NCBI GenBank assembly: GCA_021324185.1 | Contig: JAJPJN010000027.1 | Location: forward strand, 1 to 43,688 | Source of the DNA: Terriglobia bacterium | GTDB lineage: Bacteria > Acidobacteriota > Terriglobia > Bryobacterales > Bryobacteraceae | Direction of reading: 5' to 3' | Length of the DNA: 43,688 nt | In this document: positions 37,536-41,934 of the stretch, piece by piece | Position numbering within the stretch: position 1 is the stretch's first letter | How the letters are laid out: each line of letters begins with the position of its first letter | Made by a program: the position numbers and the translations under genes | Notes under the pieces: generated by a model | Told to the model about the DNA's origin: nothing | Databases searched by the model: none | What the model saw: only the letters and a program-made list of their open reading frames with translations

Positions 37536-38960
37536 CTATAGAACCAGCTCGGGGCGCTGGCGTATCTCCAGGCATCCTTTCCCCGTCGGCAGCACTTTCC
37601 CTGGATTCAATGCGCAGCTTGGATCAAACAGAGCTTTGAATTTTTTGATAAGGTCGAGAGTCGCTTCGGGGAAGAGGTGGGACATCAACTCCATCTTTTC
37701 CATTCCGACGCCATGCTCGCCGGTAATGGAGCCGCCCACCGAGACGCAATATTCGAGAATCTCATCGCCGGCTTTTCGGGCGTTCTCCAGGCCATCGGGA
37801 CTGCGCGGGTCAAACGGAAGAATGGGGTGCATGTTGCCGTCGCCCGCGTGGAAAACATTGCTGATTGCGATGCCATATTTTTTCGCGATCCGGTCAATGG
37901 CGGCGAGTGTGGCAGCGATTTGCGTGCGCGGAACAACTCCGTCCTGAACGTAATAGGTGGGGCTGACGCGACCGATGGCGCCGAAGGCATTTTTTCTGCC
38001 CTTCCAAAGCAGCTCGCGCTCGGCGGCGCTTTTGGCGACGCGAACTTCGCGCGCGCCGCATTCTTTGCAGACTTCCGCGATGGCCTCCGCCTGTTCCTCG
38101 ACGGCCTCAATCAGGCCTTCCACTTCGATCAGCAGAACCGCCGCGGCATCCAGCGGATATCCCGCGTGCGTTGCGGCTTCCACCATGCGCAGCATGGGTC
38201 CATCGAGCATTTCGAGCGCTACCGGCGTAATACCGCGCGCTGTCAGGGCTCGAACCGAATCGCCCGCCATAGCGACCGAGTTATAGATCGCCAGCATGGT
38301 CTTAACAGCTTCCGGCTGGCGCATCAGCCGCACCCAAATTTTGGTCACCAGCGCCATGGTTCCCTCAGAGCCGGTCAAGAGGCCCACCAGGTCATAGCCG
38401 GGCGCATCGAGCTCTTTTCCGCCACATTGAATCACGGTGCCGTCTGGAAGAACTGCTTCGAGCCCCAATACGTGATTAGTCGTGACGCCATACGCGAGCG
38501 TGTGCGGGCCACCGGCGTTCTCGGCGACATTGCCGCCAATGGTGCAGGCGCGCTGGCTGGATGGATCGGGCGCATAGAAATAGCCGAATGGCTGAACCGC
38601 AAGCGTGATATCGAGGTTCACGACGCCGGGCTGGACGATCGCACGCTCGTTTTCGATATCGATCTCCAGAATGCGGTTCATGCGCGCGAAGGAGATGATC
38701 ATTCCCCCGGCGCGCGCGATGGCTCCGCCGCTCAGCCCGGTACCAGCGCCGCGCCCGACAATCGCGAGATTATGCCGTTGCGCCAGCCTCACCAACGCCA
38801 CGACGTCCTCGGTCGTGCGCGGAAATACAACTACATCCGGAATCGATTTATCGACGCCGCCGTCGTACTCATAAAGTTTCAGATCGAGCGGATCGGAAAG
38901 CACGGCATCCGGAGAAAGCTGCGACTCGATAGCGGCGAGTATGTGCGAATCGAGCGGCAT
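37536..38960 (-). CDS. glcD: FAD-linked oxidase, glycolate oxidase subunit GlcD-like
   Basis: A 474-residue flavoprotein of the VAO/GlcD family oxidising 2-hydroxy acids such as glycolate or D-lactate. The FAD-binding type 4 domain (about residues 38-215) has VGRGAGTGLSGGAI and DPSSQRACTIGGNVAENAGG. The C-terminal oxidase domain has VFHAGDGNMHP and SITGEHGVGMEK. Length is normal. GlcE and GlcF partners are not adjacent, so either they lie elsewhere or the protein works alone as a D-2-hydroxyacid dehydrogenase. The TlpA-like gene ends 13 bases upstream and the ZIP gene follows. Confidence 0.88.
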   Translation of the reverse strand: MPLDSHILAAIESQLSPDAVLSDPLDLKLYEYDGGVDKSIPDVVVFPRTTEDVVALVRLAQRHNLAIVGRGAGTGLSGGAIARAGGMIISFARMNRILEIDIENERAIVQPGVVNLDITLAVQPFGYFYAPDPSSQRACTIGGNVAENAGGPHTLAYGVTTNHVLGLEAVLPDGTVIQCGGKELDAPGYDLVGLLTGSEGTMALVTKIWVRLMRQPEAVKTMLAIYNSVAMAGDSVRALTARGITPVALEMLDGPMLRMVEAATHAGYPLDAAAVLLIEVEGLIEAVEEQAEAIAEVCKECGAREVRVAKSAAERELLWKGRKNAFGAIGRVSPTYYVQDGVVPRTQIAATLAAIDRIAKKYGIAISNVFHAGDGNMHPILPFDPRSPDGLENARKAGDEILEYCVSVGGSITGEHGVGMEKMELMSHLFPEATLDLIKKFKALFDPSCALNPGKVLPTGKGCLEIRQRPELVL

Positions 38961-38973
38961 CTGAGTTTGAGAG

Positions 38974-39483
38974 CTAGAGCAGGCTCTCGACGTACTGCTT
39001 CATGTCGTCGCTGAGCCAATTTTCCGCGTTGGCAAGTTTGCGCACGACACGGCCGTCTTTGATGATGTAGGTTTCCGGGTACTGGAACGTCCCGTACTCG
39101 GCGCTCAAATTGGCGTCCGGGTCGCGGGCCGTATCGAATGATACATGTACGTGCTGCAGGAAACTGCGATATCGCTGCGGATTCTTATCCACGCTCACCG
39201 CAACCACCACGACGCCATCTTTGGCGAACTCCTTCTGAAACTGATCGAGTGACGGTATCTCCTGAATGCACGGAGCGCACCAGGTCGCCCAAAAATTGAG
39301 CACCAGCACTTTGCCGCCGAAAGAGTTGGGCGTGATGTGATGGCCCTCGTCCGTAGTCAGATTGAATTGCGGCGCGTTGCCGCCCTCTTTGGCAGAGGTA
39401 TCCCTCATACTGTAGGCGATTACGCCAATGAAGGCCAGCGTCAAACCGAAGATCAGCGCCCGGAGCGCGTTGTTTATGTTCAC
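38974..39483 (-). CDS. TlpA/ResA-like membrane-anchored thioredoxin
   Basis: A 169-residue periplasmic thiol reductase. An N-terminal anchor (ALIFGLTLAFIGVIAYSM) is followed by a TlpA-type thioredoxin domain with the active site FWATWCAPCIQEIPSL (CXXC) and the cis-Pro region FQYPETYIIKDGRV. It probably reduces disulfides in cytochrome c apoproteins or other exported proteins. The start is GTG at 39483, because the anchor follows at once. The frame is open to 39708, but that part has no signal character and overlaps the divergent PTPS gene. No ribosome site is obvious. Confidence 0.85.
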   Translation of the reverse strand: MNINNALRALIFGLTLAFIGVIAYSMRDTSAKEGGNAPQFNLTTDEGHHITPNSFGGKVLVLNFWATWCAPCIQEIPSLDQFQKEFAKDGVVVVAVSVDKNPQRYRSFLQHVHVSFDTARDPDANLSAEYGTFQYPETYIIKDGRVVRKLANAENWLSDDMKQYVESLL

Positions 39484-39497
39484 AGTAGGAGCAGCGA

Positions 39498-39520
39498 AAC
39501 CCGTCCTGGCAGAACGGGTT
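39498..39520. promoter_or_regulatory. Inverted repeat between tlpA-like and pterin operon starts
   Basis: AACCCGT (39498-39504) and ACGGGTT (39514-39520) are exact reverse complements around 9 bases. They lie in the 105-base divergent region that must contain both promoters, so this may be an operator. No sigma-70 boxes are convincing nearby. Confidence 0.4.
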
Positions 39521-39588
39521 CCAGGGACACAGACATAGCCGGTAATTCCAGTATCCAATGCCTGCTCACCGGCATCCAATCTCTGTCG

Positions 39589-40005
39589 ATGTTTGTGACG
39601 CGCAAAGTGGAGTTTTCCGCATCCCATATCTGCCGCTTGCCGGACCTTAGCGACGCCGAGAACGCTACTCTTTTCGGTCCTGAATCCAGTCCTCACGGGC
39701 ATGGACATAATTACGTGCTGGAAGTCACGTTAGAAGGCGAACCCGATCCGGTCACGGGAATGGTGATGGACCTGAAAAAGCTGAAAGACGTTCTGGAAGA
39801 GCAGGTCGTGGGCCCCATGGATCATCGATTTCTAAATTTGGAAGTAAAACCCTTTGACCGAATTGTGCCGACTACGGAAAATATCGCGCGAAATATATGG
39901 GACCGGCTGGCGCCTTTGCTGAACACACCGGCCACATCGCTGGCCCGTGTCCGGCTGTTTGAAACGCCCGATCTGTACGTCGACGTCACGCGGGAGGCGC
40001 TTTAA
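39589..40005 (+). CDS. PTPS-III-like 6-pyruvoyltetrahydropterin synthase paralogue (Cys to Glu)
   Basis: A 138-residue T-fold protein. Zinc ligands are His13, His38 and His40 (SASHIC, HGHGHNY), and the catalytic pair Asp78-His79 is intact (MDHRFLN). Spacing matches rat PTPS exactly (His23, His48, His50, Asp88, His89). At the position of the catalytic Cys42 there is Glu32 (FGPESSPHGHG). This Cys-to-Glu exchange marks PTPS-III, which in Plasmodium and various bacteria converts dihydroneopterin triphosphate to 6-hydroxymethyl-dihydropterin, replacing the folate enzyme FolB. The start is ATG at 39589, where the fold begins. The stop overlaps the next ATG (TAATG). Confidence 0.85.
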   Translation: MFVTRKVEFSASHICRLPDLSDAENATLFGPESSPHGHGHNYVLEVTLEGEPDPVTGMVMDLKKLKDVLEEQVVGPMDHRFLNLEVKPFDRIVPTTENIARNIWDRLAPLLNTPATSLARVRLFETPDLYVDVTREAL

Positions 40006-40481
40006 TGCTAAGCCTCACCCGCCGCTATCATTTCAGCGCTTCGCACCGGCTGCACTCGCCTTTGTTGAGCGCGAGCGAGAATGCGGCAGTGTTTGGTAAG
40101 TGCAACAACCCGCACGGCCACGGGCATAATTACGTGTTGTCGGTCACAGCGGCAGGCGAAGTCGATGAGCGAACGGGGCTTCTGGTCCGGATAAAAGATC
40201 TTGACCGGCTGGTCGATGAAAAAGTTTTACATTTGTTCGCACATCACGACATCAATAGGGATGTTCCTGAGTTTTCCGGCCTGATTCCGACTACCGAAAA
40301 CATCGCACTGATCATTGCCGGGTTGCTGCAGCAGTCCTGGGGCGGGTATCTGGACGGCGCGAAAGTGCATCTAGAGCGGGTGCATGTGCAGGAAACGGAG
40401 CGGAACGGATTCGAAGTGGTGATCTCAGCCGCGCCGGTCATAAACGAATTTCGAAGAGAAGGTGTACTGGTCCATGCGTAA
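40005..40481 (+). CDS. PTPS/QueD family protein with Cys but without the catalytic Asp
   Basis: A 158-residue paralogue of the preceding protein. Zinc ligands His14, His39 and His41 are kept, as is Cys33 at the catalytic Cys position ([14 protein letters not shown]). The position of the catalytic Asp is Ala79 (LFAHHDIN), while the neighbouring His80 remains. The GMVMDL-type stretch of the first copy is changed to GLLVRI. The family includes 6-pyruvoyltetrahydropterin synthase and the queuosine enzyme QueD. Loss of the Asp suggests altered chemistry or dependence on a partner subunit. It starts one base inside the stop of the first copy and overlaps folE by 8 bases. Confidence 0.82.
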
Positions 40482-41124
40482 GACGAACACTCGAATGCGT
40501 GAAAAAGAGCGAGCCGGCGAAAAAGGCTCAGTTATTGAATTTCAGTCGAAGTTGCCTCAAACGCCGGTTGCAGACCACGTGCGCGAAATACTCCGCCTGT
40601 TGGGCGAAGATACCGGCCGCGAGGGGTTGGTCCGCACGCCAGAGCGTATGGAGAAGGCGCTGCGTTATTTGACCAGCGGCTACTCGGCAGATGTGCAAAA
40701 AATTGTTAACGGCGCGCTCTTCGACGTCGAATATGACGAGGTTGTCATCGTTCGCGATATCGAGTTCTTCAGCATGTGCGAACACCATATGCTCCCCTTC
40801 TTCGGCAAGATGCACGTCGCCTATTTACCCGGCAAGAAAGTGATCGGGCTCAGCAAGATTCCTCGCATTGTGGACGTTTTTGCACGACGCCTGCAGATTC
40901 AGGAGCGGCTCACGACGCAAGTTGCCGAGACTCTTCAGGATCTCCTTTCGCCGCGCGGGGTTGCCGTCGTCTGCGAGGCGCGTCACTTTTGCATGATGAT
41001 GCGTGGTGTCGAAAAACAGCATTCGGGCGCTATCACCAGCGCCATGCTGGGCGCGTTTCGAAACAACAAAGAGACCCGCAACGAGCTGCTTTCGCTGATT
41101 GGCCCGCGATCGCAGACCATCTGA
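40474..41124 (+). CDS. folE: GTP cyclohydrolase I (FolE)
   Basis: FolE converts GTP to 7,8-dihydroneopterin triphosphate, the substrate of the PTPS enzymes encoded just upstream. Family marks are [16 protein letters not shown], the zinc/active-site motif [31 protein letters not shown] with QERLT directly behind, and [13 protein letters not shown]. The enzyme is about 216 residues from the ATG at 40474; the basic N-terminal 20 residues are poorly conserved, and starts at GTG 40462 or ATG 40495 are also possible. The overlap with the second PTPS gene implies translational coupling of all three genes. Confidence 0.92.
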
Positions 41125-41685: not shown

Positions 41686-41934
41686 ATGGTCAGTTGTCCT
41701 AAGTGTGACGCTCCTATCGACGTGGAAGAAGAAGAACTCGACGAAGGCGATGTGCTCTCGTGCGATGAGTGCGGCGCCTCGTTAACGGTCGCCAGCGTAA
41801 ATCCTGTCGAACTCGAAACAGAGGACGAAGAAGACGAAGATGACGAAGATTTCGATTTCGACGAGGATGAGGACGAAGGTGAGGAAGATGAGGAGGACGA
41901 GGACGAAGAGGAAGGGGAAGAAGATTGGCGTTAA
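41686..41934 (+). CDS. LysW-like zinc-ribbon protein with long acidic tail
   Basis: An 82-residue protein. The N-terminus is a zinc ribbon with Cys4/Cys7 (CPKC) and Cys26/Cys29 (CDEC), followed by VASVNPVELE. This matches the layout of LysW, the amino-group carrier protein of bacterial lysine/arginine synthesis (CPXC, CXXC, then a D/N-P-L segment). LysW then ends in EDWGE with an essential terminal Glu. Here about 35 Asp/Glu residues are inserted and the end is EEDWR, so the Glu that would carry the substrate is absent. GAGG stands 5 bases before the ATG. No lysX/lysZ genes are nearby, so a separate role is likely. Confidence 0.7.
   Translation: MVSCPKCDAPIDVEEEELDEGDVLSCDECGASLTVASVNPVELETEDEEDEDDEDFDFDEDEDEGEEDEEDEDEEEGEEDWR

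Follow-up and report, generated by a model that had tools for sequence, protein, structure and literature searches.

Tandem PTPS paralogues of Acidobacteriota with complementary losses of catalytic residues: a predicted hetero-oligomeric enzyme with mixed active sites

Described PTPS enzymes and comparable systems

FolE makes dihydroneopterin triphosphate, the substrate of 6-pyruvoyltetrahydropterin synthase (PTPS). A 1995 paper by Burgisser speaks in its title of an 'intersubunit catalytic triad' of PTPS; it reportedly assigns Cys42 and the pterin-holding Glu107 to one subunit and Asp88/His89 to the neighbouring one. A bimodular PTPS-II of cyanobacteria was reportedly described by Kong in 2006. 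The PTPS-II enzymes of rat and human (PF01242; PDB 1b66, 3i2b) belong to the same sequence family as the two genes studied here, and PTPS is presented as a hexamer of two trimers, made of identical chains and with its sites between three monomers (PMC7546909), whereas no single chain is complete in the window, the stretch of 43,688 nucleotides of Terriglobia DNA that we analysed. There, the zinc/Cys/Glu half of the PTPS site is found in copy 2 and the Asp/His half in copy 1.

Activity of the Synechococcus PTPS-II enzyme is stated in PMC5041015. Among 25 cyanobacterial genomes reached via named records (e.g. Synechococcus WH7803, Nostoc and Prochlorococcus), 21 showed the same kind of architecture, with two PTPS modules of which one is degenerate. 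The C-module was complete in 21/21 (loci L297-L311, L313-L317 and L320); in the N-module the dyad His was gone in 21/21 (DF in 15, NF in 3, DY in 2, NY in 1) and the zinc ligands were kept in 21/21, with the Cys kept in 17/21 and lost in 4/21. Loss is one-sided in these proteins but complementary in the Acidobacteriota pairs, so that the closest architectural counterpart is unlike them on the point that matters most.

The metformin hydrolase MetCaCb, a heterohexamer, is also formed by two paralogues, each reported to be inactive alone (PMC11271267). It belongs to another superfamily, and one of its subunits carries the whole metal cluster, whereas in the PTPS pair the catalytic residues themselves would be divided. 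No published heteromeric or split-triad PTPS was found in our literature searches, as judged by their listings.

The paralogue pair and folE in the window

Copy 1 (39589..40005, forward strand, ATG at 39589) codes for a PTPS-family protein of 138 aa, and copy 2 (40005..40481, forward strand, ATG at 40005) for one of 158 aa. Both are members of PF01242 (118.2 and 93.5 bits, respectively, for a cut-off of 22.4) and they share 42% identity. Residues were mapped by aligning both proteins with phmmer to chain 1b66 of rat PTPS, whose listed numbering is offset by four. The zinc histidines (His13/38/40 in copy 1, His14/39/41 in copy 2) and Glu107 (in TTEN; Glu98 in copy 2) are present in both proteins. 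In copy 1, Glu32 (codon 39682..39684) replaces the catalytic residue at the Cys42 position, and Asp78-His79 (39820..39825) correspond to Asp88-His89. Copy 2 exhibits Cys33 (40101..40103) at the Cys42 position and Ala79-His80 (40239..40244) at that of Asp88-His89, the Asp only being lost and the His kept. The Cys, Asp, His triad is thus found within one chain in neither protein, copy 1 being without the Cys and copy 2 without the Asp. We will refer to copy 1 as the 'dyad donor' type and to copy 2 as the 'zinc/Cys donor' type.

The PTPS-II motif CxxxxxHGH is found in copy 2 (CNNPHGHGH) and not in copy 1, which has E at the Cys position. The PTPS-I/QueD motif CxxxHGH was found in neither window copy, and the PTPS-III motif ExxHGH is not present in copy 1, whose spacing is ExxxxxHGH. 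An AlphaFold model of copy 2 (alignment of 2 rows, pLDDT 70.4), which confirms the fold only, gave human and rat PTPS as its best Foldseek matches.

The copy 1 stop and the copy 2 start share a TAATG junction. The end of copy 2 is itself overlapped by folE, coding for GTP cyclohydrolase I (40474..41124, forward strand, ATG at 40474 in a frame open from 40462), which matched NF006825 with 266.6 bits (cut-off 174) and TIGR00063 with 253 bits (cut-off 181.6). Because of this overlap, copy 1, copy 2 and folE constitute a three-gene coupled operon. The original prediction, which had placed Glu32 and Asp78-His79 in copy 1, Cys33 and Ala79-His80 in copy 2, and a translational coupling by TAATG between them, is confirmed in coordinates, frames and residues, and folE is now added to the coupled operon.

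The surroundings of the operon were also inspected. At 41686-41934 (forward strand), the window contains a gene for a small, very acidic zinc-ribbon protein, LysW-like below the cut-off (33.3 of 53.2 bits). Genes for a GlcD-like FAD oxidase and a ResA/TlpA-like thioredoxin, both below the NCBIfam cut-offs, lie at 37536-39708 on the reverse strand, divergent from the pair, and genes of these two types adjoin the pair again in some of the relatives whose neighbourhoods were compared. An Rfam search of the window gave no match at gathering scores, and copy 2 had no match in the plasmid collection.

Retention and loss of catalytic residues among relatives

An adjacent pair was found in 50 of 60 genomes (the window's own and 59 relatives), and one copy without the other was seen in none of the 60. 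The remaining ten had no comparable match: some showed weaker ones, G034 a fragment at the edge of its contig, and others none at all; the weaker matches were taken as other paralogues, upon checking for G025 and G034 and unread for G001, G002 and G007. Copy 2 was matched at E <= 1e-12 in 88 of 396 sampled genomes of the phylum. Beyond the 50 pairs, loci were drawn from 39 of the 43 matching family-f8 genomes, two more f1 genomes and all 42 matching phylum-level genomes, and a profile derived from the fetched loci served to align the PTPS domains. In all, 109 pairs were obtained within the phylum; the genes are adjacent in 96, fused in 6, trimodular in 2 and unlinked in 5. We defined half 1 as the three zinc His, Cys42 and Glu107, and half 2 as Asp88 and His89; in adjacent pairs the roles were assigned by gene position, independently of the residues. 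Since simple gene calling performed poorly here and missed several PTPS genes, statements on neighbours are limited to folE and to three SDR-type genes.

In all 109 pairs the copy-1 type has the Asp-His dyad and the copy-2 type has the zinc ligands, Cys42 and Glu107. The Cys/zinc half of copy 1 was lost in 64/109, the dyad of copy 2 in 48/109, and both in 36/109. Among the 96 adjacent pairs, the upstream copy kept half 2 in 96 and half 1 in 45, and the downstream copy kept half 1 in 96 and half 2 in 61. The column entropy follows the same division: at Cys42 it amounts to 2.08 bits for copy 1 against 0 for copy 2, and at Asp88/His89 to 0/0 for copy 1 against 1.37/1.52 for copy 2, a contrast which indicates that the pattern is more than chance. 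The zinc ligands of copy 1 were kept in 94/96. Its Glu107 was kept in 88/96, all eight losses falling in the window's own genus, so that the decay does not demonstrate the assignment of Glu107 to the copy 2 side.

The FolE match starts at most 262 bases downstream of the pair in 90/96 adjacent pairs, and one of the six pairs without such a match, L048, ends at the contig end. The two copies might be considered as decaying duplicates under relaxed selection, near to pseudogenes, as several catalytic positions are variable. This reading is extremely remote: in the window the frames are open and coupled in translation, folE adjoins most of the adjacent pairs, and the invariant halves already contradict it, the retained half being lost in 0/109 pairs.

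We then considered how the two losses combine. The original prediction had proposed, as a check, to see whether the two substitutions co-occur in tandem pairs, and a tight coupling between them was not supported: both halves were broken in 23 of the 96 adjacent pairs, half 1 of copy 1 only in 28, the dyad of copy 2 only in 12 and neither in 33 (Fisher p 0.089, uncorrected for relatedness). Over all 109 pairs, both copies are complete in 33, only copy 2 in 28, only copy 1 in 12 and neither in 36. A homomer could therefore serve in the 33 pairs and in the 28 + 12, and only 36/109 need a composite site.

Where the catalytic Cys would stand, copy 1 of the adjacent pairs has Cys in 45, E in 24, A in 14, G in 5, S in 4, N in 2, D in 1 and L in 1, and the 35 broken dyads of copy 2 were of 20 different kinds. 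These distributions bear on the possibility that the two proteins are separate homo-oligomers, copy 1 being a Glu-type, PTPS-III-like enzyme for folate and copy 2 a dyad-independent enzyme. PTPS-III (Plasmodium PTPS and the bacterial FolB replacements) resembles copy 1 by an acidic residue near the Cys position, and Dittrich and colleagues attribute the formation of 6-hydroxymethyl-dihydropterin by Plasmodium PTPS to a Glu in place of Cys (PMC2229834). FolB, moreover, was not found in the window's own genome, and within family f1 no more than 3 of 36 genomes have it above the cut-off. However, since the Cys position of copy 1 is so varied, with Cys more frequent than E, the Glu is no maintained nucleophile; neither its conservation nor the motif spacing, which differs from the PTPS-III signature given in PMC5041015, fits PTPS-III, and the many replacements of the copy 2 dyad look like relaxed constraint. 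FolB was also above the cut-off in 18/18 genomes of family f3, 17 of them with the pair, which is therefore present in both families. Acidobacteria are named among the phyla without folB in PMC4674097.

A further PTPS-family gene argues in the same direction. The third such gene of the window's own genome (G000:C94:9658-10005, L001) has CENVHGH, which fits both the PTPS-I motif CxxxHGH and CExxHGH, and CExxHGH, described as the signature of the dual folate/queuosine (PTPS-I/III) enzyme (PMC5041015), was found at 17 of 21 paralogue loci checked, this one included. This separate CExxHGH paralogue probably covers folate and plausibly queuosine as well. Altogether we consider two separate homo-oligomers very unlikely, and the lack of conservation of both Glu32 and Ala79 speaks against the separate single-residue-dependent reactions that the original prediction had offered as its second option.

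The same split recurs in other gene arrangements. Six single genes (in five f20 genomes and in G064) contain two modules in the same order as the pair, with an N-module that lacks the Cys and keeps the dyad (6/6) and a C-module with half 1 intact and the dyad broken (6/6; QG 3, SG 2, DC 1); the FolE match lies at most 55 bases downstream in five of them and upstream in the sixth. Two genes are trimodular (L143 in G415 and L065 in G433): modules 1 and 2 lack the Cys and one to three zinc ligands and keep Asp-His, and module 3 keeps zinc/Cys with a broken dyad (QM and DG). Five genomes have the two genes unlinked, on separate contigs. The dyad of the half-1 copy is broken in 5/5 (DR 3, DC 1, ER 1), and its donor keeps Asp-His and is without the Cys and one or two of the zinc ligands (the second His is replaced by Tyr in 5, and the first by Arg in 2). 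The zinc site can thus be broken in a donor; as roles were assigned here by residues and not by gene order, these five pairs give no independent support for the retention rule.

Trees were built without the trait columns; they have few columns and modest support. They place at least 20 changes of dyad state on the copy-2 side (133 rows, of which 24 are singles) but none on the copy-1 side (111 rows). For the Cys state they give at least 4 changes on the copy-1 side and none for copy 2. Adjacent pairs alone gave 16 dyad changes, on the copy-2 side, and 3 Cys changes, on the copy-1 side. In the trees the half-1 copies of the unlinked pairs are nested within complete single copies, so the complementary loss probably arose more than once.

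Twenty-four domains were single in the fetched stretch, with half 1 intact in 24/24 and the dyad in 22/24. Of the two exceptions, one (L067, G425) is a C-module of the fused type cut by the contig end, and the other (L142, G408) is a zinc/Cys copy with Asp-Cys whose match lies 283 bases from the contig end; a whole-genome PF01242 search found no donor in G408 and only one other, differently built paralogue. The other PF01242 matches in single-copy genomes are other paralogue types, and none of those inspected was an Asp-His donor of the unlinked type with a broken zinc site. G123, counted as single, is off the pattern, as a second copy without Cys and without dyad (L340) follows about 1.2 kb after the complete one. 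The counter-case named by the original prediction, a lone copy 2 with the same Ala, was accordingly not seen among the 24 singles, but the G408 copy stands alone with a broken dyad and no donor seen.

The singles also bear on whether copy 2 could be the enzyme by itself, as a homomer without a full dyad, with copy 1 as an assembly or regulatory subunit. The complete retention of zinc ligands, Cys and Glu by the copy-2 type would agree with this, and in metformin hydrolase one paralogous subunit is said to bind the active one (PMC11271267). Such an arrangement is nevertheless highly unlikely: the dyad is kept by nearly all single copies, and the copy-1 type keeps exactly Asp-His throughout, even when its own zinc site is broken, which would be needless for a mere scaffold.

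A predicted divided active site and its pathway

Copy 1 and copy 2 are likely to form a hetero-oligomeric PTPS-type enzyme with mixed sites, fed by FolE, most likely a 6-pyruvoyltetrahydropterin synthase of PTPS-II type. As the PTPS triad is intersubunit, a hetero-oligomer is the best reading of the pair. The two proteins would be two subunits of one enzyme with the triad divided over neighbouring subunits: from copy 2 would come the zinc site with the catalytic Cys, and probably also the Glu that holds the pterin, while copy 1 would reach across the interface between subunits with its Asp-His relay. The converse site, formed by the Cys position of copy 1 with the Asp-His position of copy 2, would have decayed, leaving neither window chain alone with a full triad. 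The residues fall into two sets that decay separately and correspond to the two sides of the interface, and the zinc-Cys centre of copy 2 would be idle without a dyad, as would the dyad of copy 1 without zinc-Cys, which makes the mixed oligomer the simplest account. The possibility of mixed active sites, raised by the original prediction, thus gains support from the sequence comparison, through the role-specific, one-directional losses over 109 pairs, the fusions with the same split and the unlinked donors without zinc ligands.

A more far-reaching reading is somewhat favoured. PTPS would have become an obligate heteromer, with its triad split over two paralogues, more than once within one phylum and by complementary decay, in adjacent genes, in two- and three-domain fusions and in unlinked genes, ending in donors without Cys and zinc ligands that lend only Asp-His. 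The trimodular genes possibly code for a trimer ring in one chain; their composition suggests two donors and one acceptor per ring, with perhaps one working site per ring in the three-domain proteins.

The adjacency of folE indicates that the substrate of the pair, which would be made by FolE of the same operon, is probably dihydroneopterin triphosphate. A product of the PTPS-II type is our best guess, which we hold tentatively. In a biopterin pathway, a sepiapterin reductase would sit like the SDR-type gene found directly after the fused or trimodular gene, or after its folE, in G183, G415 and G433, the three of the eight fused or trimodular cases that this statement covers. None of these three genes is above the TIGR01500 cut-off for sepiapterin reductase, no protein exceeded it in any of the 16 genomes searched, and no sepiapterin reductase gene lies next to the pair within the window. 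Two roles were considered and discarded: phenylalanine hydroxylation as a general explanation, as PF00351 was found in 14/60 genomes and is absent from the window's own, and a folate role driven by the loss of FolB, in view of the f3 genomes that have FolB together with the pair.

For annotation, both genes would receive the names of PTPS or of a FolB substitute, though neither should work alone if the enzyme is a heteromer. If the hetero-oligomer is real, the road from a self-assembling to an obligate two-part enzyme would be visible stepwise in these bacteria, with both copies complete in 33 pairs, one side lost in 40 and complementary loss in 36, and the locked partnership of duplicated enzymes, by complementary degeneration or neutral ratchets, would become directly testable in PTPS pairs.
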